DNA of 64,000 nucleotides from Oceanihabitans sediminis (GTDB lineage: Bacteria; Bacteroidota; Bacteroidia; Flavobacteriales; Flavobacteriaceae). The position numbers and the translations under genes were made by a program. The notes under the pieces are model-generated. The model saw only the letters and a list, made by a program, of their open reading frames with translations. It was not told the DNA's origin and ran no database searches. Below are positions 33,771 to 43,736 of this stretch, in pieces. The DNA lies in contig NZ_QPIG01000001.1 of NCBI RefSeq assembly GCF_003337215.1, positions 62,001-126,000 of the forward strand, read 5' to 3'. Positions within the stretch are counted from its first letter, which is position 1, and each line of letters starts with the position of its first letter.

Positions 33771-35864
33771 CTATTCCTTTGTTTTAATAAATTTCGGATT
33801 CACATACAATTTACCTTCTTTCAGCTTCTTCCAATAAGCCCTCATATCGGCATTAATTTCTGGAGCCATAATGTACAAGCCTATAATATTTGGAAAGGAC
33901 ATAGCAAGAATCATCATATCTGCAAAACTTAAAACAGCTCCTAAACTTACCGAAGCACCTAATACAACAAAAACCAAATACATGACTTTATAAACCATCT
34001 CTAGTTTTTTACTTCTTCCAAATAAATAAGTCCAAGAACGCATTCCGTAATAAGACCAAGAAACCATAGTTGAGAAAGCAAACAAAAATACAGCAATCGC
34101 TAAGACAGACGGGAACCAAGAAACAACACTTCCAAAGGCATCAGCTGTAAGCTCTACACCTCCTAGTCCGCTATTTGTTTCATGCATTCCAGTAAAAATT
34201 AAAACTAAAGCAGTCATGGTACAAACCAACATGGTATCAATAAATGGCTCTACCAAGGCAGTAAAACCATCTGCAATTGGGTTATTTGTTTTTGATGCAC
34301 TATGTGCAATTGCAGCAGAACCAACCCCTGCTTCACTAGAGAATGCCGCACGTTGTAGCCCTATAATTAACACACCAATAAATCCTCCTTTTAATGCGTC
34401 TGCAGAAAATGCTCCTTCAAAAATTGCAGTAATAGCACCTCCTATATATTCAATATGATATCCTATCACAATCAAACATCCTAAAACATAAAAAATCGCC
34501 ATTACCGGAACCACTTTCGCTGTTACTTTGGCAATACTTTTAATACCCCCTATAATCACCGCTCCAACTAATAAGGCAAATCCAATTCCGAACCAAAAAC
34601 CTTGTCCTTGTAAAAACGGAATTTGCTCTGAAACAATTTTAAAAGCCTGATTAGACTGTAACATATTTCCACCACCAAACGAAGCACCAACACCAAGCAC
34701 AGCAAATAAAATCGCTAAAAACTTTCCTAATTTTTTAAGGTTTTGTTTTTCTAAACCATAGCGCAAATAGTTCATTGGCCCACCAAAAATCCTACCTTCT
34801 TCATCTATAAAACGATATTTTACACCTAAAGTACATTCGGCAAACTTTAAAGACATACCAAAAAATCCTGCTAAAAACATCCAAAAAGTAGCACCTGCTC
34901 CTCCTAAAGAAATTGCCACAGCAACACCTGCTATATTCCCTAGACCAACAGTTGCAGAAACCGCGGTTGCCATTGCTTGAAAATGCGTAATCGTACCAGG
35001 TGCATTAGGGTCGTCATACTTCCCTTTTGCTAAATCCATAGAGTGTTTGAATCCGCGAATATTCACAAATTTTAATCGTAGAGTAAAAAACACCGATCCT
35101 AAAATAAGCCAAATCACAATAAACGGAATCGTATTGGTTTTCACATCTCCATTAGGATGTAAAAGAGCTTGTGGTTCTTGAAATTGTATTTCACCTAACG
35201 GAAGCGCTTTAAAAGTTCCAACTGCTGGTTTTCTAGAAATAACATCTCCCTGTTTAGATATATGTTGTAAAACCCCTGCTGCTGAAGCTGTAAAAGGTAT
35301 TTCTATTTTTTGTTCATTTTCTAGTATGGCAATTTTCTCTCCTTTTTTAACTTCTGCACCATCTTCAACAAGCCATTTTTTTAATAGAAATTTCTCACGA
35401 GCACCTACCTCCTCTTTGGATAGTAAAATACTTTTAGAAGAAGTATATACCACAGGATCATAAATTCCTAAAGTAGCAAAAGGATCCCAAAACAAAATAG
35501 CTCCAAGCACATCTACGGCCGGTTGCACTTTACTATTAAAAATCTCTGTAATAGATTCTGCTGGAATTTTAAATGTCTTTGAAGTATTATTTCCTTCAGC
35601 ATCACTAATAGTAACAGAATGGTTCATTCCCTCTATCAAGCCAACAGATTTCGAAGATTCTAAGTCGGTATTTACATTACTCCATTTATATTCATAAGGA
35701 GCTTCCCCCCCCTGAACCGAAACTTTCGCAATACCGTTATTTATTTCGGAAGAAGGGTTTTGAAGTTCTAGCTTTATCGTCATTTTGCCTCCTGACGAAA
35801 CCTGAGCATTTGAAATAAAATATATAAATAGCGTAAAAAGAACAAAAAGTCTTATTTTTATCAT
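33771..35864 (-). CDS. alanine/Na+ symporter with SprB-like and lipoyl-like N-terminal domains
   Basis: A 697-residue AGCS-family amino-acid:Na+ symporter with an unusual front end. A signal peptide (1-20) leads to a SprB/PKD-like beta repeat at about 30-98 (VQGGEAPYEYKWSN), then the first AGCS helix (SKVQPAVDVLGAILFWDPFA). A biotinyl/lipoyl-like fold follows at about 155-215 (WLVEDGAEVKKGEKIAILEN and AAGVLQHISKQGDVI), which lacks the MKM biotin site. From residue 247 the transporter core is normal, with GNIAGVAVAISLGGAGATFWM and AAFSSEAGVGSAAIAHSAS. It should import alanine or glycine. The insertion between the first helix and TM1 may sense or bind something extracytoplasmic. It stands alone on its strand. 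Confidence 0.88.
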   Translation of the reverse strand: MIKIRLFVLFTLFIYFISNAQVSSGGKMTIKLELQNPSSEINNGIAKVSVQGGEAPYEYKWSNVNTDLESSKSVGLIEGMNHSVTISDAEGNNTSKTFKIPAESITEIFNSKVQPAVDVLGAILFWDPFATLGIYDPVVYTSSKSILLSKEEVGAREKFLLKKWLVEDGAEVKKGEKIAILENEQKIEIPFTASAAGVLQHISKQGDVISRKPAVGTFKALPLGEIQFQEPQALLHPNGDVKTNTIPFIVIWLILGSVFFTLRLKFVNIRGFKHSMDLAKGKYDDPNAPGTITHFQAMATAVSATVGLGNIAGVAVAISLGGAGATFWMFLAGFFGMSLKFAECTLGVKYRFIDEEGRIFGGPMNYLRYGLEKQNLKKLGKFLAILFAVLGVGASFGGGNMLQSNQAFKIVSEQIPFLQGQGFWFGIGFALLVGAVIIGGIKSIAKVTAKVVPVMAIFYVLGCLIVIGYHIEYIGGAITAIFEGAFSADALKGGFIGVLIIGLQRAAFSSEAGVGSAAIAHSASKTNNPIADGFTALVEPFIDTMLVCTMTALVLIFTGMHETNSGLGGVELTADAFGSVVSWFPSVLAIAVFLFAFSTMVSWSYYGMRSWTYLFGRSKKLEMVYKVMYLVFVVLGASVSLGAVLSFADMMILAMSFPNIIGLYIMAPEINADMRAYWKKLKEGKLYVNPKFIKTKE

Positions 35865-36002
35865 GAAAACAGTAAATTTTTTATGGTTTTTTATGGAAAA
35901 TCACAATTTACGGATTAACAAAAGGTCTGACAAAACATTCAATATTTATTTTTATTTCAGAACAAGATTTTGCTGTTTTTTCCCAAAAAAAGAGAAAACA
36001 AG

Positions 36003-36032
36003 TTTGTTTTTTTAATAATTCCTCTATATTTG
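36003..36032 (+). promoter_or_regulatory. promoter of the ilv leader and operon
   Basis: TTTG (36003-36006), an 18-base spacer and TATATTTG (36025-36032) form an exact Bacteroidota -33/-7 promoter. The first leader-peptide ATG is 20 bases downstream, so transcription should start around 36039. Confidence 0.8.
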
Positions 36033-36051
36033 CCCTGAATTTAGAACCGAA

Positions 36052-36126
36052 ATGAGAAATTTATCTATTATTCCTGCTATTATTATTGCAATTGTGATTT
36101 TCACACCTGCAACAGGGATGCTATAG
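36052..36126 (+). CDS. ilv leader peptide 1
   Basis: A 24-residue reading frame, MRNLSIIPAIIIAIVIF then TPATGML, with seven Ile codons (all ATT) and one Val (GTG), directly behind the promoter and 21 bases before a terminator. High Ile content is what an attenuation leader needs: a ribosome slowed by scarce charged tRNA-Ile changes the RNA fold. GGGA near its end (36116-36119) can pair with TCCC in the first arm of the terminator, a weaker antiterminator than in the two later units. Confidence 0.8.
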   Translation: MRNLSIIPAIIIAIVIFTPATGML

Positions 36127-36146
36127 AAAAAATATAAAATATATTT

Positions 36147-36179
36147 AAAAGCCTCCCGAGAAATCAGGAGGCTTTTTTT
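36147..36179 (+). terminator. attenuator terminator 1
   Basis: AAAAGCCTCC (36147-36156) and GGAGGCTTTT (36167-36176) form a strong stem with a ten-base loop and a run of seven T. It lies inside the operon leader, before two further leader peptides, so it can only act as an attenuator or partial stop. Confidence 0.85.
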
Positions 36180-36194
36180 ATTAGTTAAAACAAA

Positions 36195-36251
36195 ATGACA
36201 ACACATACAAACATTATTATTATCAGCATTATTATTCGCTCCCGAGAGTGA
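36195..36251 (+). CDS. ilv leader peptide 2
   Basis: An 18-residue frame, MTTHTNIIIISIIIRSRE, with seven Ile codons and three Thr codons. Its stop codon lies within GAGTGAG (36246-36252), which is complementary to CTCACTC in the first arm of the next terminator. A ribosome finishing the peptide would cover GAGTGAG and let the terminator form; one stalled at the Ile codons leaves it free to block the terminator. Confidence 0.85.
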   Translation: MTTHTNIIIISIIIRSRE

Positions 36252-36274
36252 GGATTTCTGGTATCTATAATACT

Positions 36275-36309
36275 AAGCCTTTCTCACTCACCTGAGAAAG
36301 GCTTTTTTT
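36275..36309 (+). terminator. attenuator terminator 2
   Basis: AAGCCTTTCTCA (36275-36286) pairs perfectly with TGAGAAAGGCTT (36293-36304) around a six-base loop, followed by seven T. The competing pairing is GAGTGAG (36246-36252) with CTCACTC (36283-36289). Confidence 0.9.
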
Positions 36310-36381
36310 GTTTAAAGACTTAAAGAACACATAAAAAATCTATTGAAAACAACAACACCAAACATAGAACAAACACACATC

Positions 36382-36438
36382 ATGACAACTTTCACTAACA
36401 TTATTATCAGCATTATTAATATTCGCTCCCCCGAGTGA
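36382..36438 (+). CDS. ilv leader peptide 3
   Basis: An 18-residue frame, MTTFTNIIISIINIRSPE, clearly a copy of leader 2: same length, same start and the same RS-x-E end. It carries six Ile codons. Its stop again lies in GAGTGAG (36433-36439), which can pair with CTCATTC (36470-36476) of the third terminator. The duplication covers peptide, antiterminator and terminator as one unit. Confidence 0.85.
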   Translation: MTTFTNIIISIINIRSPE

Positions 36439-36461
36439 GAAATGCTGCTATACCTATACCT

Positions 36462-36498
36462 AAGCCTTTCTCATTCATTTGAGAAAGGCTTTTTTTTT
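36462..36498 (+). terminator. attenuator terminator 3
   Basis: AAGCCTTTCTCA (36462-36473) and TGAGAAAGGCTT (36480-36491) form the same 12-pair stem as terminator 2, with a six-base loop and a long T-run. It lies 33 bases before the ilvE start codon. Confidence 0.9.
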
Positions 36499-36530
36499 AA
36501 CCAAAAATCAAAATTTAATAATCACATACC

Positions 36531-37418
36531 ATGTACTACAACGACAACACAGTAATTTATCTAGACGGAAAATTTGTTAAAGCTAACCAAGCTTCCACAG
36601 ATTTATACAGTCAAACGCTTCACTACGGATACGGCGTTTTTGAAGGAATTCGCGCCTATGCTACAGAGAACGGAACTCAAGTTTTTAAATCTTATGAGCA
36701 CTTCGAACGCTTGAAAAGATCAGCAGAGCTTATTCAAATTCCATTCGCGTATGATGTGCAAGCCTTAGTAGATGCTACGGATGAATTGTTGCGTAGAAAT
36801 AAGCTAACAGATGCCTATGTTCGTCCTTTGGTGTTCTGTGATCCCAACATGACACTAGCGCGACCAAACAATGTTTCTATCATGATCTGCGCTTGGGAAT
36901 GGGGCGCATATTTGGGCGACAAACAATTGCGTTTAATGGTTTCTTCTTATTGCCGACCTCACCCCCGCTCTATAAAAATTGAAGCCAAAGTCTGCGGACA
37001 TTATGTGAATTCAATTCTTGCTACAAATGAAGCCAAAGATAAAGGCTATGACGAAGCCTTGCTTTTGGATAGCGATGGTTTCTTGGCAGAAGGTCCGGGT
37101 GCTAATTTATTCTTCGAAAAAGATGGTGTTTTATTCACGCCGCAATTGGGAAATATCCTTCCCGGAATTACGCGCGCAACAGTGTTAGAAATAGCCGAAG
37201 AACTTGAAATGGAGGTTCAGCAAGGCTTATTTAAGCCGAATGAATTATTTGAAGCAGATAGTGCTTTCTACTGTGGAACAGCCGCTGAAGTCATTGGAAT
37301 TGCTTCGGTTGATGAAACTGTATTTCCAAAAGCTTGGAAAGATTCATTAGGGAAAAAATTACAAGATGCTTACTCAAAAAGAGTGAGAGAAACTTCAAAC
37401 GTATTGAGCAAAAACTAA
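36531..37418 (+). CDS. ilvE: branched-chain amino-acid aminotransferase
   Basis: A 295-residue fold-type IV PLP enzyme that converts the branched-chain 2-keto acids to valine, leucine and isoleucine. It shows [14 protein letters not shown] near residue 31, the Schiff-base lysine in [15 protein letters not shown], and the late signature [21 protein letters not shown] with [13 protein letters not shown]. Length is normal for the short IlvE class. First structural gene after the triple attenuator. Codon use (many CGC, CGT, GCG) and base composition differ from the surrounding AGA-rich genes, as for the whole operon. Confidence 0.96.
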
Positions 37419-37420
37419 TC

Positions 37421-39097
37421 ATGAAAACTTTAAATAAATACAGTAAAACAATCACGCAAAACGAATCTCAACCTGCTGCACAAGCTATGCTTTACGGTAT
37501 AGGGTTGACGGAAGAAGATATGCAAAAAGCACAAATCGGGATTGTGAGTACAGGTTACGAAGGGAATACCTGCAATATGCATTTGAACGACTTGGCGAAA
37601 GAAGTCAAAACAGGGGTTCAAAACGAAAACCTTGTTGGATTGATTTTCAATACGATTGGCGTAAGTGATGGGATTTCCAACGGAACAGATGGAATGCGAT
37701 TTTCTTTAGTTTCCCGTGATGTTATTGCTGATTCAATCGAAACCGTGGTTAGCGCACAATGGTATGACGCAGTTTTAGCCGTAGTGGGTTGCGATAAAAA
37801 TATGCCTGGTTCTATCATCGCCATGGGCAGATTAAATCGTCCTGCGATCATGGTTTACGGTGGAAGTATTCATTCTGGAAAATGGAAAGGTGAATCTTTG
37901 AACATCGTTTCGGCTTTTGAAGCCTTGGGAAAGAAATTTAACAACACGATAAGTCCAGAGGATTTCAAAGGCGTCATCAAAAATGCTTGTCCAGGTGCAG
38001 GTGCTTGTGGCGGAATGTACACTGCCAACACGATGGCTTCTGCCATTGAAGCTCTGGGAATGAGTTTACCTTACAGTTCTTCAAATCCTGCTTTGAGCGC
38101 TGAGAAAAATCAAGAATGTTTAGCTGCTGGAAAGGCGATACGCGTATTACTTGAAAAAGACATCAAACCAAAAGATATCATGACCAAAAAGGCATTTAAA
38201 AATGCCATTACCATGGTTACCGTTTTGGGTGGTTCTACCAATGCGGTCTTACACTTAATCGCGATGGCGCATGCTGTAGAAATCGAGTTAACATTAGAAG
38301 ATTTCCAGAAAATCAGCGATAAAGTTCCTGTTTTAGCCGATTTAAAACCAAGCGGAAAATACCTGATGGAAGATTTACATGCTGTTGGTGGTGTTCCTGC
38401 AGTGATGAAATATTTACTGGCCAACAACTTGCTTCACGGGGATTGTTTAACCGTAACAGGAAAAACAGTTGCCGAGAATTTAGCTGAAGTTCCGAGTTTA
38501 ACGGCAGGTCAGGAAGTGTTTTTCTCATTGGATTCTCCTGTTAAAGAAACGGGGCATTTGCAAGTTCTGTTTGGGAATTTGGCACCGAATGGAAGTGTGG
38601 CGAAAATCAGCGGAAACGAAGGTGAATTTTTTGAAGGTTCTGCAAAAGTTTACAACGATGAATACGAAGCAATTGATGGAATAAAAAGCGGCGAAGTGAA
38701 ATCGGGAGATGTAGTGGTGATTCGCTACTGTGGACCGAAAGGAGGTCCTGGAATGCCAGAAATGCTCAAGCCAACTTCTGCTATCATGGGCGCTGGCCTT
38801 GGGAAAAGTGTTGCGCTTATTACCGATGGAAGATTCTCAGGTGGAACACACGGATTCGTGGTGGGACATATCACGCCCGAAGCTTATGAAGGAGGAACGA
38901 TTGCTCTTATTGAAAATGGTGACACCATTACCATTGATACGAAGAACAATACCATGAATTTAAAAGTGAGTGAAGAAGAATTGGCGCAACGAAAGTTGAA
39001 TTGGAAACAGCCTGAACTTAAAGCGAAAAAGGGAGTGTTGTATAAATATGCAAAGTGTGTTTCGTGTGCATCTACAGGTTGTATAACAGATAAATAA
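37421..39097 (+). CDS. ilvD: dihydroxy-acid dehydratase
   Basis: A 558-residue iron-sulfur enzyme of valine and isoleucine synthesis, dehydrating dihydroxy acids to keto acids. Cluster cysteines are in [11 protein letters not shown] and [19 protein letters not shown], with a third region near the C-terminus ([19 protein letters not shown]). I chose the ATG at 37421 ([13 protein letters not shown]), two bases after the ilvE stop. The frame is open further upstream, but that part overlaps ilvE and has no family similarity. The C-terminus [14 protein letters not shown] carries extra cysteines typical of the family. Confidence 0.97.
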
Positions 39098-40800
39098 TGA
39101 AAGAAATGACAACAACAAAAACAACAGGCGCTCAAGCGGTAATGAAATCTTTAGTCGCGGAGCAAGTCGATACAATATTTGGATATCCCGGAGGAGCAAT
39201 TATGCCGATTTATGATGCTTTATACGACTATGAAGATGCGGTAAAACACATTTTAGTTCGTCATGAACAAGGCGCAACACATGCTGCTCAGGGTTATGCG
39301 CGAACATCAGGGAAAACGGGAGTAGTTTTCGCCACTTCTGGACCGGGAGCAACGAATTTAATTACAGGTTTGGCGGATGCCATGATCGATTCAACGCCTT
39401 TAGTTTGCATCACAGGACAAGTTGATTCGAAATTACTGGGAACAGATGCTTTCCAGGAAACAGATGTGGTGGGGATTTCTATGCCGATTACAAAATGGAA
39501 TACCCAGGTAACCAAAGCAGAAGATATTCCAGCGGCGATTGCAAAGGCATTTTATATAGCGAAATCTGGTCGTCCAGGACCTGTTTTAATCGACATTACC
39601 AAAGATGCACAGTTTGGTGAAATGGAATTTCAGTACGAAAAATGTACGACGATCCGAAGTTATCGTCCGAAACCTAAATTGAATTCAGCCTTGGTAGAAG
39701 AGGCTGCAACTTTAATCAATGGAGCGAAAAAACCGTATTTATTGATCGGTCAAGGCATCATGCTATCGAATGCCGAACAGGAACTTTTGAATTTCGTTGA
39801 AAAATCTGGAATTCCTGTGGCTTCTACTCTTTTAGGATTGGGTGCTTTCCCAAATCATCATCTTTTATATGCTGGTTATTTAGGAATGCACGGAGATTAC
39901 GCGGCGAATGTCAAAACCAACGAATGTGATGTGCTGATTGCTATCGGAATGCGCTTCGACGATAGAGTGACTGGAGATGTTTCTCGTTATGCCAAACAAG
40001 CAAAAGTGATTCATGTGGATATTGACGCTTCGGAGTTGAATAAAATCATCAATGCTGATGTTGGAGTTCATTCCGATGCAAAAGAAGCACTGACTTTATT
40101 GACAGAGCTCGTTCAAGAGAAAAAGCATACGGCTTGGTTACAGGAATTCAGAGATCTTAAGAAAGTTGAGGTTGAAACTTTGCAAAAAAGTACAGACGAA
40201 TCATTCAGCGATGAGATAAAAATGGAAGAAGTGATTAAGATGCTTTCTGAAATTACCAAGGGAGAAGCTGTTGTTGTTACCGATGTTGGTCAGCACCAAA
40301 TGTTGACTGCGCGTTATTACGAATACAATAAAACGAAGAGCAACATTACATCTGGAGGACTAGGAACGATGGGATTCGCACTTCCAGCGGCGATTGGAGC
40401 GAAGTTCGGAGCACCAGAAAAAACAGTCGTTGCCATAATCGGAGATGGCGGATTCCAAATGACTTTACAGGAATTGGGAACGATTTTACAAAGTGAAGTA
40501 GATATAAAAATCATCATTCTCAACAATCGATTCCTTGGAATGGTGAGACAATGGCAACAAATGTTTTTCGAAAAACGCTATTCTTTTACCAATATGGTCA
40601 GTCCGAACTTCATTGCTTTGGCTCAGGCATATTCCATCAGCGCTAAAAAAGTTGAAGCTCGTGAGGAACTGAAAGAGAATTTATTAAAAATGTTGCATCA
40701 CAATGGTCCTTATTTACTTGAAGTCATGGTCGCAAAAGAGGAAAATGTTTTCCCAATGATTTGCACAGGCGCTTCGGTTTCAGAAGTACGATTAAACTAA
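39097..40800 (+). CDS. ilvB: acetolactate synthase, large (catalytic) subunit
   Basis: A 567-residue ThDP/FAD enzyme making acetolactate and acetohydroxybutyrate. The catalytic glutamate is in LVRHEQGATHAAQGYARTSG, FATSGPGATNLITGLADAMI marks the pyrimidine domain, and the ThDP-binding motif begins GDGGFQMTLQELGTI and ends at the asparagines of IIILNNRFLGM. The start ATG overlaps the ilvD stop by one base (TAATG), so translation is coupled. A second ATG four codons on (MTTTKTTG) is possible. It works with the small subunit encoded 7 bp downstream. Confidence 0.97.
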   Translation: MKEMTTTKTTGAQAVMKSLVAEQVDTIFGYPGGAIMPIYDALYDYEDAVKHILVRHEQGATHAAQGYARTSGKTGVVFATSGPGATNLITGLADAMIDSTPLVCITGQVDSKLLGTDAFQETDVVGISMPITKWNTQVTKAEDIPAAIAKAFYIAKSGRPGPVLIDITKDAQFGEMEFQYEKCTTIRSYRPKPKLNSALVEEAATLINGAKKPYLLIGQGIMLSNAEQELLNFVEKSGIPVASTLLGLGAFPNHHLLYAGYLGMHGDYAANVKTNECDVLIAIGMRFDDRVTGDVSRYAKQAKVIHVDIDASELNKIINADVGVHSDAKEALTLLTELVQEKKHTAWLQEFRDLKKVEVETLQKSTDESFSDEIKMEEVIKMLSEITKGEAVVVTDVGQHQMLTARYYEYNKTKSNITSGGLGTMGFALPAAIGAKFGAPEKTVVAIIGDGGFQMTLQELGTILQSEVDIKIIILNNRFLGMVRQWQQMFFEKRYSFTNMVSPNFIALAQAYSISAKKVEAREELKENLLKMLHHNGPYLLEVMVAKEENVFPMICTGASVSEVRLN

Positions 40801-40807
40801 TAAAAAA

Positions 40808-41320
40808 ATGGAAAAAACATATACCGTTTCGGTTTTTACAGAAAATAGCATTGGAATGATGAATCGTGTGACTATTGTTTTCACGCGTAGACATTTAAAC
40901 ATTGACAGTATTACGGCTTCTGAATCTGAAGTCCCTGGCGTATTTCGCTACACGATTGTTTTAAGAACAACTCGCCAACAGGTAGATAAGGTGGTAGGTC
41001 AACTGGAGAAAGTAATCGATGTAATCAAGGCTTTTGTTCATGAAGAAAATGACATCGTTCATCAAGAGGTTGCTTTGTATAAGATTAGGACAGAAACATT
41101 AACGAATGGCGATGTCGAAAAGGTAATTCGTGAACATCATGCACGAGTATTAACAGTTGACCCTCAATTTATGGTCATCGAAAAAACCGGACATGTTGAA
41201 GAAACACAATTGCTTTTCGAAAAGCTCAGACCGTATGGAGTGCTGGAATTCGCAAGATCTGGAAGGGTGGCAGTAACGAAACCGATGAAGGAGTTGAGTA
41301 CATACTTGGAGGAGATTTAG
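40808..41320 (+). CDS. ilvN: acetolactate synthase, small (regulatory) subunit
   Basis: A 170-residue ACT-domain protein that stimulates the catalytic subunit and gives valine feedback. The N-terminal ACT domain is clear (YTVSVFTENSIGMMNRVTIV, then FTRRHLNIDSITASESE), and the C-terminal domain resembles the IlvH/IlvN half that contacts the enzyme (ETLTNGDVEKVIREHHARVL). Length equals E. coli IlvH. It is the fourth gene of the operon, followed by a 128-bp AT-rich gap. Confidence 0.94.
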   Translation: MEKTYTVSVFTENSIGMMNRVTIVFTRRHLNIDSITASESEVPGVFRYTIVLRTTRQQVDKVVGQLEKVIDVIKAFVHEENDIVHQEVALYKIRTETLTNGDVEKVIREHHARVLTVDPQFMVIEKTGHVEETQLLFEKLRPYGVLEFARSGRVAVTKPMKELSTYLEEI

Positions 41321-41448
41321 ATAATTATGAATTGTTCAATTACGAATTAAAAAAAATATCACTCAACAGATTTACGAATAAACGATTTGCAGAAAAACAA
41401 ATTAACAACTTCACAAAAAAACGAATTAACAAATAAACAATAGAAAAA
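41321..41448. other. AT-rich gap inside the ilv operon
   Basis: The only gap above 10 bp in the operon. It holds degenerate repeats of ACGAATTAACAA-like words (near 41340, 41370 and 41422) and no hairpin with a T-run, so transcription probably continues through it. Confidence 0.45.
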
Positions 41449-42492
41449 ATGGCAACAATAAATTTTGGAGGCGTATTAGAAAACGTAGTAAAGCGCGATG
41501 AATTTCCGTTGGGGAAAGCGCAAGAAGTATTAAAAAATAAAACCGTAGCTGTAATCGGTTATGGAGTTCAAGGACCTGGGCAGGCGCTCAATTTAAGAGA
41601 CAATGGAGTAAATGTCATTGTGGGTCAACGCAAAGGAACTGGAAGTTGGAAAAAAGCTTTGGCAGATGGTTGGGAAGAAGGAAAAACACTTTTCGAAGTG
41701 GAAGAAGCTTGTGAAAAAGCAACTGTAGTGATGAATTTACTTTCTGATGCGGGTCAAATTCAAGCTTGGGAAGGAATGAAAAAACACTTAACCAAAGGGA
41801 AAACGCTTTATTTCTCTCATGGATTTGGCGTAACCTTCCACGAAAAAACAGGAATTGTTCCTCCTACGGATATCGATGTTGTTTTAGTTGCACCGAAAGG
41901 CTCGGGAACTTCGCTGAGAAGTTTATTCTTGAGTGGTCAAGGTTTGAATTCCAGTTATGCCGTTTTCCAAGACGCAACAGGAAAAGCAGAAGAACGTGCT
42001 CTGGCATTAGGAATCGCCATTGGTTCGGGATATTTATTCGAAACAACATTCCAAAAAGAAGTGTACAGTGATTTAACAGGAGAACGAGGTGTTTTAATGG
42101 GCGCTGTAGCAGGAATATTTGAAGCGCAATTCAATGTTTTACGTCAACGTGGACATTCGCCAAGTGAAGCATTTAACGAAACTGTGGAAGAATTCACACA
42201 AAGTTTAATGCCGCTGATTGCAGAAAACGGAATGGATTGGATGTTTGCTAATTGTTCAACCACTGCACAACGTGGAGCATTGGATTGGAAAGGAAAATTC
42301 CGAGACGCAACAGAACCTGTTTTGAATGAATTATACGACAGTGTTGTTTCAGGAAAAGAAGCAGAAATCTTAATCGAAGCGAATAGTAAAGCAGATTATC
42401 GTGAAAAATTAGAAGAAGAACTCAGCGTTATGCACAACAGTGAACTTTGGCAAACTGGATTAGAAGTGCGAAAATTAAGACCTACGAAATAA
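41449..42492 (+). CDS. ilvC: ketol-acid reductoisomerase, short (class I) form
   Basis: A 347-residue NAD(P)H-dependent enzyme that isomerises and reduces acetolactate-type compounds. The Rossmann motif is VAVIGYGVQGPGQALNLRDNG; later, metal and substrate residues are in SDLTGERGVLMGAVAGIFEA and the C-terminal EANSKADYREKLEEEL. The short knotted form (about 330-350 residues) contrasts with the 490-residue form found in many bacteria, including many flavobacteria as far as I recall. It shares the higher-GC codon use of the operon. Confidence 0.95.
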   Translation: MATINFGGVLENVVKRDEFPLGKAQEVLKNKTVAVIGYGVQGPGQALNLRDNGVNVIVGQRKGTGSWKKALADGWEEGKTLFEVEEACEKATVVMNLLSDAGQIQAWEGMKKHLTKGKTLYFSHGFGVTFHEKTGIVPPTDIDVVLVAPKGSGTSLRSLFLSGQGLNSSYAVFQDATGKAEERALALGIAIGSGYLFETTFQKEVYSDLTGERGVLMGAVAGIFEAQFNVLRQRGHSPSEAFNETVEEFTQSLMPLIAENGMDWMFANCSTTAQRGALDWKGKFRDATEPVLNELYDSVVSGKEAEILIEANSKADYREKLEEELSVMHNSELWQTGLEVRKLRPTK

Positions 42493-43736
42493 TGGAATTA
42501 TTAGACAAAGTTTATGAAGCTAGGGAACGAATAAAAAACGTTGCGCTGCATACACCTTTAATGAAAAATGAAAACTTGAGCGAGGAATTCTTCGCTCAAG
42601 TTTACTTGAAACGGGAAGATTTACAACCCGTTCGCTCTTATAAATTGAGAGGTGCGTACAACAAAATTGTTTCGCTGAAAGACGAAGAAAAAGCCAAAGG
42701 AGTAGTATGCGCAAGTGCTGGGAATCACGCTCAAGGAGTTGCTTTTGCTTGCCATAAATTGAATATTAAAGCGGCGATTTTCATGCCGGTGACCACTCCA
42801 CCACAAAAAACAAAACAAGTCAAGCTCTTCGGGAAAGACAAAGTTGAAGTGATTTTAAAAGGCGACACTTTTGATGAAGCTTATGAAGAAGCCATGCTAT
42901 TTTGCAAAGTATCCGAAGCAATTTTCATTCATCCCTTCGACGATGAAAAAGTCATGGCTGGACAAGGAACAATAGCTTTGGAATTGTTAGAAGACAGCAA
43001 AAATCCCATAGATTATTTGTTTGTTCCGATTGGGGGAGGTGGTTTAGCCGCTGGAGTAAGTTCGGTGTTTAAACAACTGAGTCCGCATACGAAAATCATT
43101 GGTATTGAACCTGAAGGTGCTCCATCCATGAAAAATTCAATTCAAAATGAAGTCAACACAACTTTGGAGGACATTGATAAATTTGTAGATGGTGCTTCTG
43201 TAAAACGTGTGGGAGAAAAAACTTTTGAAATCTGCAAGAACAACATTGAGGACATTATCCTTGTTCCCGAAGGAAAGATTTGCACCACGATTTTACGTTT
43301 GTACAATGAAGAAGCCATTGTCGTAGAACCTGCTGGAGCATTAACCATTTCTGCACTCGACTTTTACAAAGATCAAATCAAAGGAAAAAACGTAGTTTGT
43401 GTGGTAAGTGGCAGCAACAACGACATCATCCGTACGGAAGAAATCAAGGAACGGTCTTTATTGTATGAAGGATTGAAGCATTATTTCCTCTTGAAATTCC
43501 CACAACGTCCGGGTGCATTAAAGGAATTCGTTAACGACATTTTAGGTCCAAACGACGACATCGCCTATTTCCAATATTCAAAAAAGAACAACCGAGAAAC
43601 CGGTCCTGTGGTCGTTGGAATTGAGTTGCAAAACAAAGCCGATTTATCTGGAATTGAAGCAAATTTAAAAGCGCAAAAGTTTACCTATCAGTATTTGAAT
43701 GGAAATAGGGATTTGTTTACGCATTTGATTGGTTAA
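42492..43736 (+). CDS. ilvA: threonine dehydratase (biosynthetic)
   Basis: A PLP enzyme of about 414 residues deaminating threonine to 2-ketobutyrate, the entry to isoleucine. The Schiff-base lysine is in LQPVRSYKLRGAYNK, the phosphate-binding loop is VPIGGGGLAAGVS, and a single ACT-like regulatory domain ends the protein (YFLLKFPQRPGALKEFVND). That single domain matches the short IlvA form. I chose the ATG at 42492, overlapping the ilvC stop by one base. The open frame extends upstream into ilvC without support. Its presence explains why the leaders count Ile codons. Confidence 0.95.
   Translation: MELLDKVYEARERIKNVALHTPLMKNENLSEEFFAQVYLKREDLQPVRSYKLRGAYNKIVSLKDEEKAKGVVCASAGNHAQGVAFACHKLNIKAAIFMPVTTPPQKTKQVKLFGKDKVEVILKGDTFDEAYEEAMLFCKVSEAIFIHPFDDEKVMAGQGTIALELLEDSKNPIDYLFVPIGGGGLAAGVSSVFKQLSPHTKIIGIEPEGAPSMKNSIQNEVNTTLEDIDKFVDGASVKRVGEKTFEICKNNIEDIILVPEGKICTTILRLYNEEAIVVEPAGALTISALDFYKDQIKGKNVVCVVSGSNNDIIRTEEIKERSLLYEGLKHYFLLKFPQRPGALKEFVNDILGPNDDIAYFQYSKKNNRETGPVVVGIELQNKADLSGIEANLKAQKFTYQYLNGNRDLFTHLIG

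Follow-up and report, generated by a model that had tools for sequence, protein, structure and literature searches.

The ilvEDBNCA operon of Oceanihabitans sediminis very probably stands behind three complete ribosome-mediated transcription attenuators, which would read charged tRNA-Ile in series behind one promoter, with read-through being the product of the three stages. This reading came from a 64,000-nucleotide stretch of DNA (hereafter, the window) in the genome of this member of Bacteroidota (2.9 Mb, 20 contigs, 97.31% complete). We infer that the leader frames are translated, that termination depends on ribosome stalling, and that read-through multiplies across the stages. In the proposed mechanism, the run of Ile codons and the stop-codon region would pair in a protector hairpin when no ribosome is present, and the terminator would form. 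When Ile is scarce, a ribosome would stall on the Ile codons and melt the protector; the freed stop-codon region would then capture the first terminator arm, and RNA polymerase would pass. The polymerase would have to pass three times, each time with fresh ribosome loading and stalling. Three multiplied probabilities would keep leak low while Ile is ample and make read-through climb more sharply once it runs short.

Organization of the leader and operon

Positions 36052-36498 of the window carry three short Ile-rich frames, each followed by an intrinsic terminator, with a single promoter element on the 5' side and ilvE on the 3' side. All features of the leader are on the plus strand. The frames are MRNLSIIPAIIIAIVIFTPATGML (unit 1, 36052-36126), MTTHTNIIIISIIIRSRE (unit 2, 36195-36251), and MTTFTNIIISIINIRSPE (unit 3, 36382-36438); their lengths of 24, 18, and 18 residues and their seven, seven, and six Ile codons, as given in the original prediction, held on re-reading, as did the coordinates. 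The strong terminators claimed for each unit were also recovered, with stems at 36148-36175, 36275-36304, and 36462-36491, each followed by at least seven T; with their T runs, they extend over 36148-36179, 36275-36309, and 36462-36498. A simple terminator scan reported units 2 and 3 on the plus strand and the unit 1 hairpin on the minus strand only, because of its rule for the start of the T run. The three units had been assigned to one promoter, and we agree. This promoter (36003-36032) consists of TTTG at 36003-36006 and TATATTTG at 36025-36032, which is 27 nt upstream of unit 1; it was assigned from the sequence by TTTG/TAnnTTTG, which we take to be the Bacteroidota promoter consensus. No element of the TAnnTTTG type was found between the units of the window leader, and a strict TAnnTTTG is located within 80 nt upstream of unit 1 in 11 of 15 loci.

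This arrangement is not expected by chance. None of 2,000 dinucleotide-preserving shuffles of positions 35991-36530 gave even one unit, defined as a frame with at least five Ile plus a terminator. Three ATG frames with at least six Ile were observed; the shuffles gave one such frame in 85 of 3,000, two in 1 of 3,000, and never three. Similarly, three terminators were observed, and the shuffles gave one in 10 of 3,000 and never more. A looser detector applied to all 64 kb returned exactly the three leader units on the plus strand and two units on the minus strand, one of which is the opposite strand of the ilv leader. When a covariance model of units 2 and 3 (R1) was run on the O. sediminis genome, its two strong matches were units 2 and 3 themselves. 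The next matches were three at 33 bits (E 0.0076), all on one contig-end repeat, which probably broke the assembly. This repeat lies at G000:C1:5-111, C13:570663-570769, and C14:398188-398294, and 127 bases are identical between the L241 copy and each of the other two. The anatomy, the shuffles, and the conservation described below support the claimed series of three Ile attenuators preceding the ilv operon.

The operon (36531-43736, plus strand) follows the leader and consists of ilvE (branched-chain aminotransferase, TIGR01122; 36531-37418), ilvD (dihydroxy-acid dehydratase; 37421-39097), ilvB (acetolactate synthase large subunit; 39097-40800), ilvN (acetolactate synthase small subunit; 40808-41320), ilvC (ketol-acid reductoisomerase; 41449-42492), and ilvA (threonine ammonia-lyase; 42489-43736). 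The Ile/Val operon is complete, and neither leuA above the family cut-off nor hisG was found in the whole genome. Since no leuA exceeded the cut-off, the host probably lacks Leu synthesis, and its gene content suggests that O. sediminis probably needs Leu and His from outside. In the same genome, the detector found no terminator-plus-Trp leader upstream of either chorismate-binding gene. At 33771-35864 on the minus strand of the window, a sodium:alanine symporter (PF01235) is extended at its N terminus by a segment matching a biotin/lipoyl domain (PF00364); a match to the SprB repeat in this extension was below the cut-off.

Amino acid sensed

In 28 examples of units 2 and 3, 197 of 474 residues are Ile, with 2 Val and 4 Leu. 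Judged by these codons, units 2 and 3 are predicted to be almost pure Ile sensors, and the leader as a whole is predicted to sense Ile, though the operon serves Val too. Unit 1 is different: its frame is longer, its terminator, fold, and sequence are of another kind, and the 343 residues from 15 loci include 102 Ile, 24 Val, and 23 Leu. This difference, set beside the almost exclusive use of Ile in units 2 and 3, would suit a reading in which three real Ile attenuators are arranged in series mainly for low leak or graded thresholds rather than for a steep switch. We give that reading a smaller, though appreciable, chance. Three independent stages would provide both low leak and steepness, and the evidence does not separate the two; low leak is as likely a purpose as a steep response. 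The steep response, which we infer for the three multiplied stages, would hold only if they act independently.

Folding of the units

In folding models, every unit, unit 1 included, is predicted to be a classical four-segment attenuator with a protector, an antiterminator, and a terminator. The original prediction proposed that GAGTGAG, which contains the stop codon of units 2 and 3, pairs with the first arm of the terminator, and this pairing was supported. The simple switch between a stalled and a terminated state that was drawn from it was incomplete, because GAGTGAG also pairs on its 5' side with TTCGCTC and thereby forms a protector. Moreover, unit 1, for which no switch had been claimed, has in its folding an antiterminator of its own, GGGATGCT with AGCCTCCC. 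On the basis of the protector and antiterminator folds, a two-state switch for units 2 and 3 with none for unit 1 was rejected. The frames, the terminators, their conservation, and the three alternative folds are computational results.

RNAalifold, applied to 28 aligned units 2 and 3, found a two-part protector hairpin and the terminator unprompted. In the outer part of the protector, the frame codons ATC AGC (Ile-Ser) pair with the spacer GCTGGT, which accounts for the strong conservation of the Ser codon and the spacer; in the inner part, TTCGCTC pairs with GAGTGAG around the stop codon. Among the 28 units, 99.0% of the cells of the inner helix are paired, with five further pair types and one pair changed on both sides (seen as UA, UG, and CG). 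In the terminator, 99.1% of the cells are paired and two pairs are changed on both sides. The antiterminator, in which GAGTGAG and the spacer pair with the first terminator arm, has 94.0% of its cells paired; no double-sided change was observed in it among the same units, and 487 of 500 shuffles paired equally well. Therefore, the antiterminator rests on complementarity and not on covariation. Because the same bases also serve the protector, the terminator, and the stop codon, they may have little freedom to covary. The terminator arms of both units in Brumimicrobium (L040) are now CCTGAC, complementary to GTCAGG of the conserved spacer, and these sequences indicate that the antiterminator can still form in another register.

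The predicted folds were located as follows. In unit 1, the frame itself forms a long protector hairpin (36064-36127) that differs in fold and sequence from those of units 2 and 3, and the antiterminator (36115-36157) joins GGGATGCT at 36115-36122 to AGCCTCCC at 36150-36157, as supported by folding and ribosome occlusion. In unit 2, alignment, RNAalifold, and folding place the two-part protector at 36213-36271, and alignment and folding place the antiterminator at 36246-36289, with GAGTGAGGA (36246-36254) paired to TTCTCACTC (36281-36289). In unit 3, the antiterminator (36433-36476) joins GAGTGAGAAATGCT at 36433-36446 to AGCCTTTCTCATTC at 36463-36476 with 13 of 14 positions paired. The energies of the whole pre-terminator stretch, the antiterminator with a stalled ribosome, and the terminator are -20.7, -9.1, and -15.4 kcal/mol for unit 1, -13.6, -16.4, and -16.9 kcal/mol for unit 2, and -12.4, -15.5, and -17.9 kcal/mol for unit 3.

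Termination in this leader would yield three stable short RNAs, and the peptides of units 2 and 3 are conserved; hence the leader might instead act in trans through the small RNAs or peptides that it releases, as reported for peTrpL (PMC7298713). The conserved residues are regulatory codons and pairing bases, so no separate peptide function is needed, and we consider release of such products very unlikely. Less probable still is a riboswitch or a T-box, whether of an established class or a new one. The leader is long and structured, as such an RNA would be. However, a T-box covariance model gave no match in the O. sediminis genome (the same search was positive in 5 of 14 control genomes), and no Rfam family reached its gathering score in the 64-kb window. 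Unit 1 scored 37.4 bits against Phe_leader, which is below the gathering score of 55, and His_leader and Thr_leader were likewise below threshold. The riboswitch and T-box readings were rejected by the T-box search, the Rfam gathering scores, and these leader-family scores. In addition, gaps in the frame portion of the 28-unit alignment (columns 7-12, 18-20, and 34-36) span multiples of three, whereas those in the spacer are single bases. Attenuation by leader translation fits these gaps.

Ribosome occlusion

The switch itself was examined by a calculation in which bases under the ribosome footprint could not pair and the transcript included only the first 3 nt of the second terminator arm. 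It compared a ribosome on the Ile codons with one at the stop codon by how much of the first terminator arm was held by upstream sequence in each case. The set comprised 44 units, three from the window and 41 from relatives, with unit 3 of L051 taken with its displaced stop. In all 44, more antiterminator formed when the ribosome was on the Ile codons than when it was at the stop, by 0.47 on average; the mean difference was 0.11 (sd 0.18) when the region behind the last Ile codon was shuffled. Thirty-one of the 44 units exceeded all 12 of their own shuffles and the remaining 13 did not. For the window units, the observed difference was reached by 8 (unit 1), 13 (unit 2), and 0 (unit 3) of 300 shuffles each. 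The antiterminator of window unit 2 was still at 0.40 with the ribosome at the stop, and modeling support for a switch is weaker for this unit.

Equilibrium folding of the full unit gave a switch in three of the seven units tried (unit 2 of the window, of L039, and of L047) and none in window units 1 and 3. Therefore, the truncated-transcript form was used alongside it, and the switch must be kinetic, or weaker than drawn. For the model to work, the antiterminator has to be in place before the polymerase has made the second terminator arm. The switch in classical attenuators is kinetic.

Distribution among relatives

A scan with IlvE returned 80 loci, the best being those of Profundicola chukchiensis (96%), Brumimicrobium oceani (88%), and Winogradskyella and Bizionia (85%). 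Of the 80, 77 had 400 nt or more of upstream sequence; the detector placed three units at 12 of these ilvE loci, two at 11, one at 39, and none at 15. Seven of the 11 two-unit loci include a piece of a coding gene (L073, L079, L080, L084, L090, L098, and L101), and four remained after their removal (L041, L054, L059, and L091). The three-unit loci (L039, L040, and L042-L051) have the unit order of the window and belong to Profundicola, Brumimicrobium, Bizionia (now Algorimicrobium), Aequorivita (two), Xanthomarina, Marixanthomonas, Flavobacterium (three), and two MAGs; they span seven named genera and three NCBI families. The same three units are present in genome G109, in which ilvE behind the three-unit leader (L119, 1311-2189) has one in-frame stop codon. 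The three peptides of genome G346 equal those of L049, and the two may be the same species. In the three-unit leaders, unit 1 has 22-24 codons, unit 2 has 16-18, and unit 3 has 18-19 except in L051, in which the stop codon has changed and the frame extends to 27 codons.

Single units and pairs are more widespread. In 119 regions upstream of ilvD in the family (120 of 135 ilvD-bearing genomes were taken, and one region was too short), one unit was found in 54, two in 13, three in one, and none in 51. At E ≤0.001, the covariance model of units 2 and 3 matched 49 genomes in a search of 395 from the order and 35 in a search of 395 from the phylum; the two sets overlap. Twenty-nine loci from the order search were inspected: 21 had two units, one had three, four had one, and three had none, and ilv genes were nearby in 25. 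These matches, with two units at 21 of 29 loci, indicate that tandem pairs before ilv genes are common in Flavobacteriales; Chryseobacterium-like leaders such as L091 are examples. Ile-rich attenuator pairs were also observed near ilvN-like or ilvA genes of Flavobacterium-like genomes (L248, L252, L253, L255, L256, and L259).

Duplication and transfer

Units 2 and 3 are clearly duplicates, with a within-locus identity of 0.86. Copies also decay, as in L051, in which unit 3 has lost its stop, and in L041, which has two units. One unit may thus regulate, with the others being leftover duplicates that act as weak constitutive terminators. We regard this as unlikely since all three units have been kept in 12 of 77 ilvE loci from three families, and every unit tried folds into a protector, an antiterminator, and a terminator. 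Three working attenuators remain the preferred reading. Units 2 and 3 are mutual nearest kin in two of 13 loci (L046 and L119), a sequence pattern that hints at later homogenization. In the ilvD tree, the branch closest to the three-unit operons from outside is L054, a locus with two units. This suggests a plausible history in which one unit of the unit-1 type was joined to one of the unit-2/3 type, and the latter was then doubled.

The operon may have a history different from that of its host. The IlvD of the window shares 67-69% identity with those of all six same-genus genomes, compared with 96, 92, and 91% with those of Profundicola, Brumimicrobium, and Bizionia, respectively. In the ilvD tree, which had a midpoint root and did not include L041, L051, or L119, the window falls in a clade of 12 rows (98/96), all with three units, and the six same-genus rows are separate (100/99). 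The ilv leaders of the genus also differ, with one unit found in four of the six genomes. The simplest reading of these comparisons is that the operon and its leader came from outside the genus, and the triple appears to mark one operon clade that moved between families. In Winogradskyella epiphytica (L041), ilvE is 85% identical to that of the window and follows two units, and no ilvD, ilvB, ilvN, ilvC, or ilvA was found in the 4 kb downstream of it.

The leader of P. chukchiensis (L039) is interrupted. Its units 1 and 2 are 97% identical to those of the window over 286 nt and lie 1.6 kb upstream of unit 3. Between units 2 and 3 is a gene (L039:2223-3824), flanked on both sides by TTTAAAAACTTA, that encodes a protein of 533 residues carrying GEVED and type IX sorting domains; visual inspection from terminator 2 to the start codon of this gene showed no TAnnTTTG. 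The corresponding gap in the window, from terminator 2 to the ATG of unit 3 (36305-36381), is 77 nt, compared with 21-25 nt in 12 other three-unit leaders, and is the place where P. chukchiensis carries the GEVED gene. This longer gap suggests that something may have come or gone there too.

Known systems and implications

Classical enterobacterial attenuators (trp, his, thr, leu, ilvGMEDA, and pheA) have the same parts, namely, a frame of regulatory codons, a protector, an antiterminator, and an intrinsic terminator. The regulatory codons of the E. coli ilv leader are a mixture of Ile, Val, and Leu. In contrast to these systems, three attenuators precede one operon in the present leader, and units 2 and 3 contain near-pure Ile codons. 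A single switch of this sort is of the textbook kind; a same-signal triple kept across several bacterial families is unusual.

Salmonella mgtCBR (PMC3641672) has two independent leader frames that respond to ATP and charged tRNA-Pro; as proposed for the present case, more than one leader frame controls transcription past the leader. The authors of that study describe a two-attenuator leader as unusual and report nothing resembling intrinsic terminators. In contrast, the present leader has the same codon in all three stages, which predicts one signal, and three intrinsic terminators. Strong clues for leader-peptide attenuation before amino-acid operons, supported by transcript maps, were described in Flavobacterium psychrophilum; however, the main text of that study names neither an ilv leader nor tandem attenuators (PMC9723704). 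In tandem riboswitches and tandem glnA RNAs, one sensor is repeated, an arrangement reported to go with more digital control (PMC2864571); these are ligand-binding RNAs, whereas ribosome-stalling leaders are proposed here. A search of the open-licence literature turned up no paper describing serial leader-peptide attenuators for the same signal upstream of Bacteroidota ilv operons, a silence that is weak evidence of absence.

On a broader scale, we see an even chance that ilv genes in Flavobacteriales are commonly guarded by two or three serial attenuators for the same signal, with stages added by unit duplication, and that the three-stage form is a portable module that moved between families with its operon (once, in Winogradskyella, perhaps with ilvE alone) and is able to take up a foreign gene between stages. 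If so, a gene between stages would be under two Ile checkpoints and the ilv genes under three, and these leaders would provide a natural series for how the number of stages sets leak, gain, and threshold. According to a modeling study on attenuation, which treats single-stage examples, gain is set by how many regulatory codons there are and what share they make up (PMC1183508). Two antisense attenuators in series reportedly improved dynamic range in an engineered system (PMC3753616). The present results raise the question of whether stacked stages reduce leak, steepen the response, or do both, and how much maximal expression is given up in return. The natural one-, two-, and three-stage Ile attenuators in related operons may allow a direct test of the effect of stacking.
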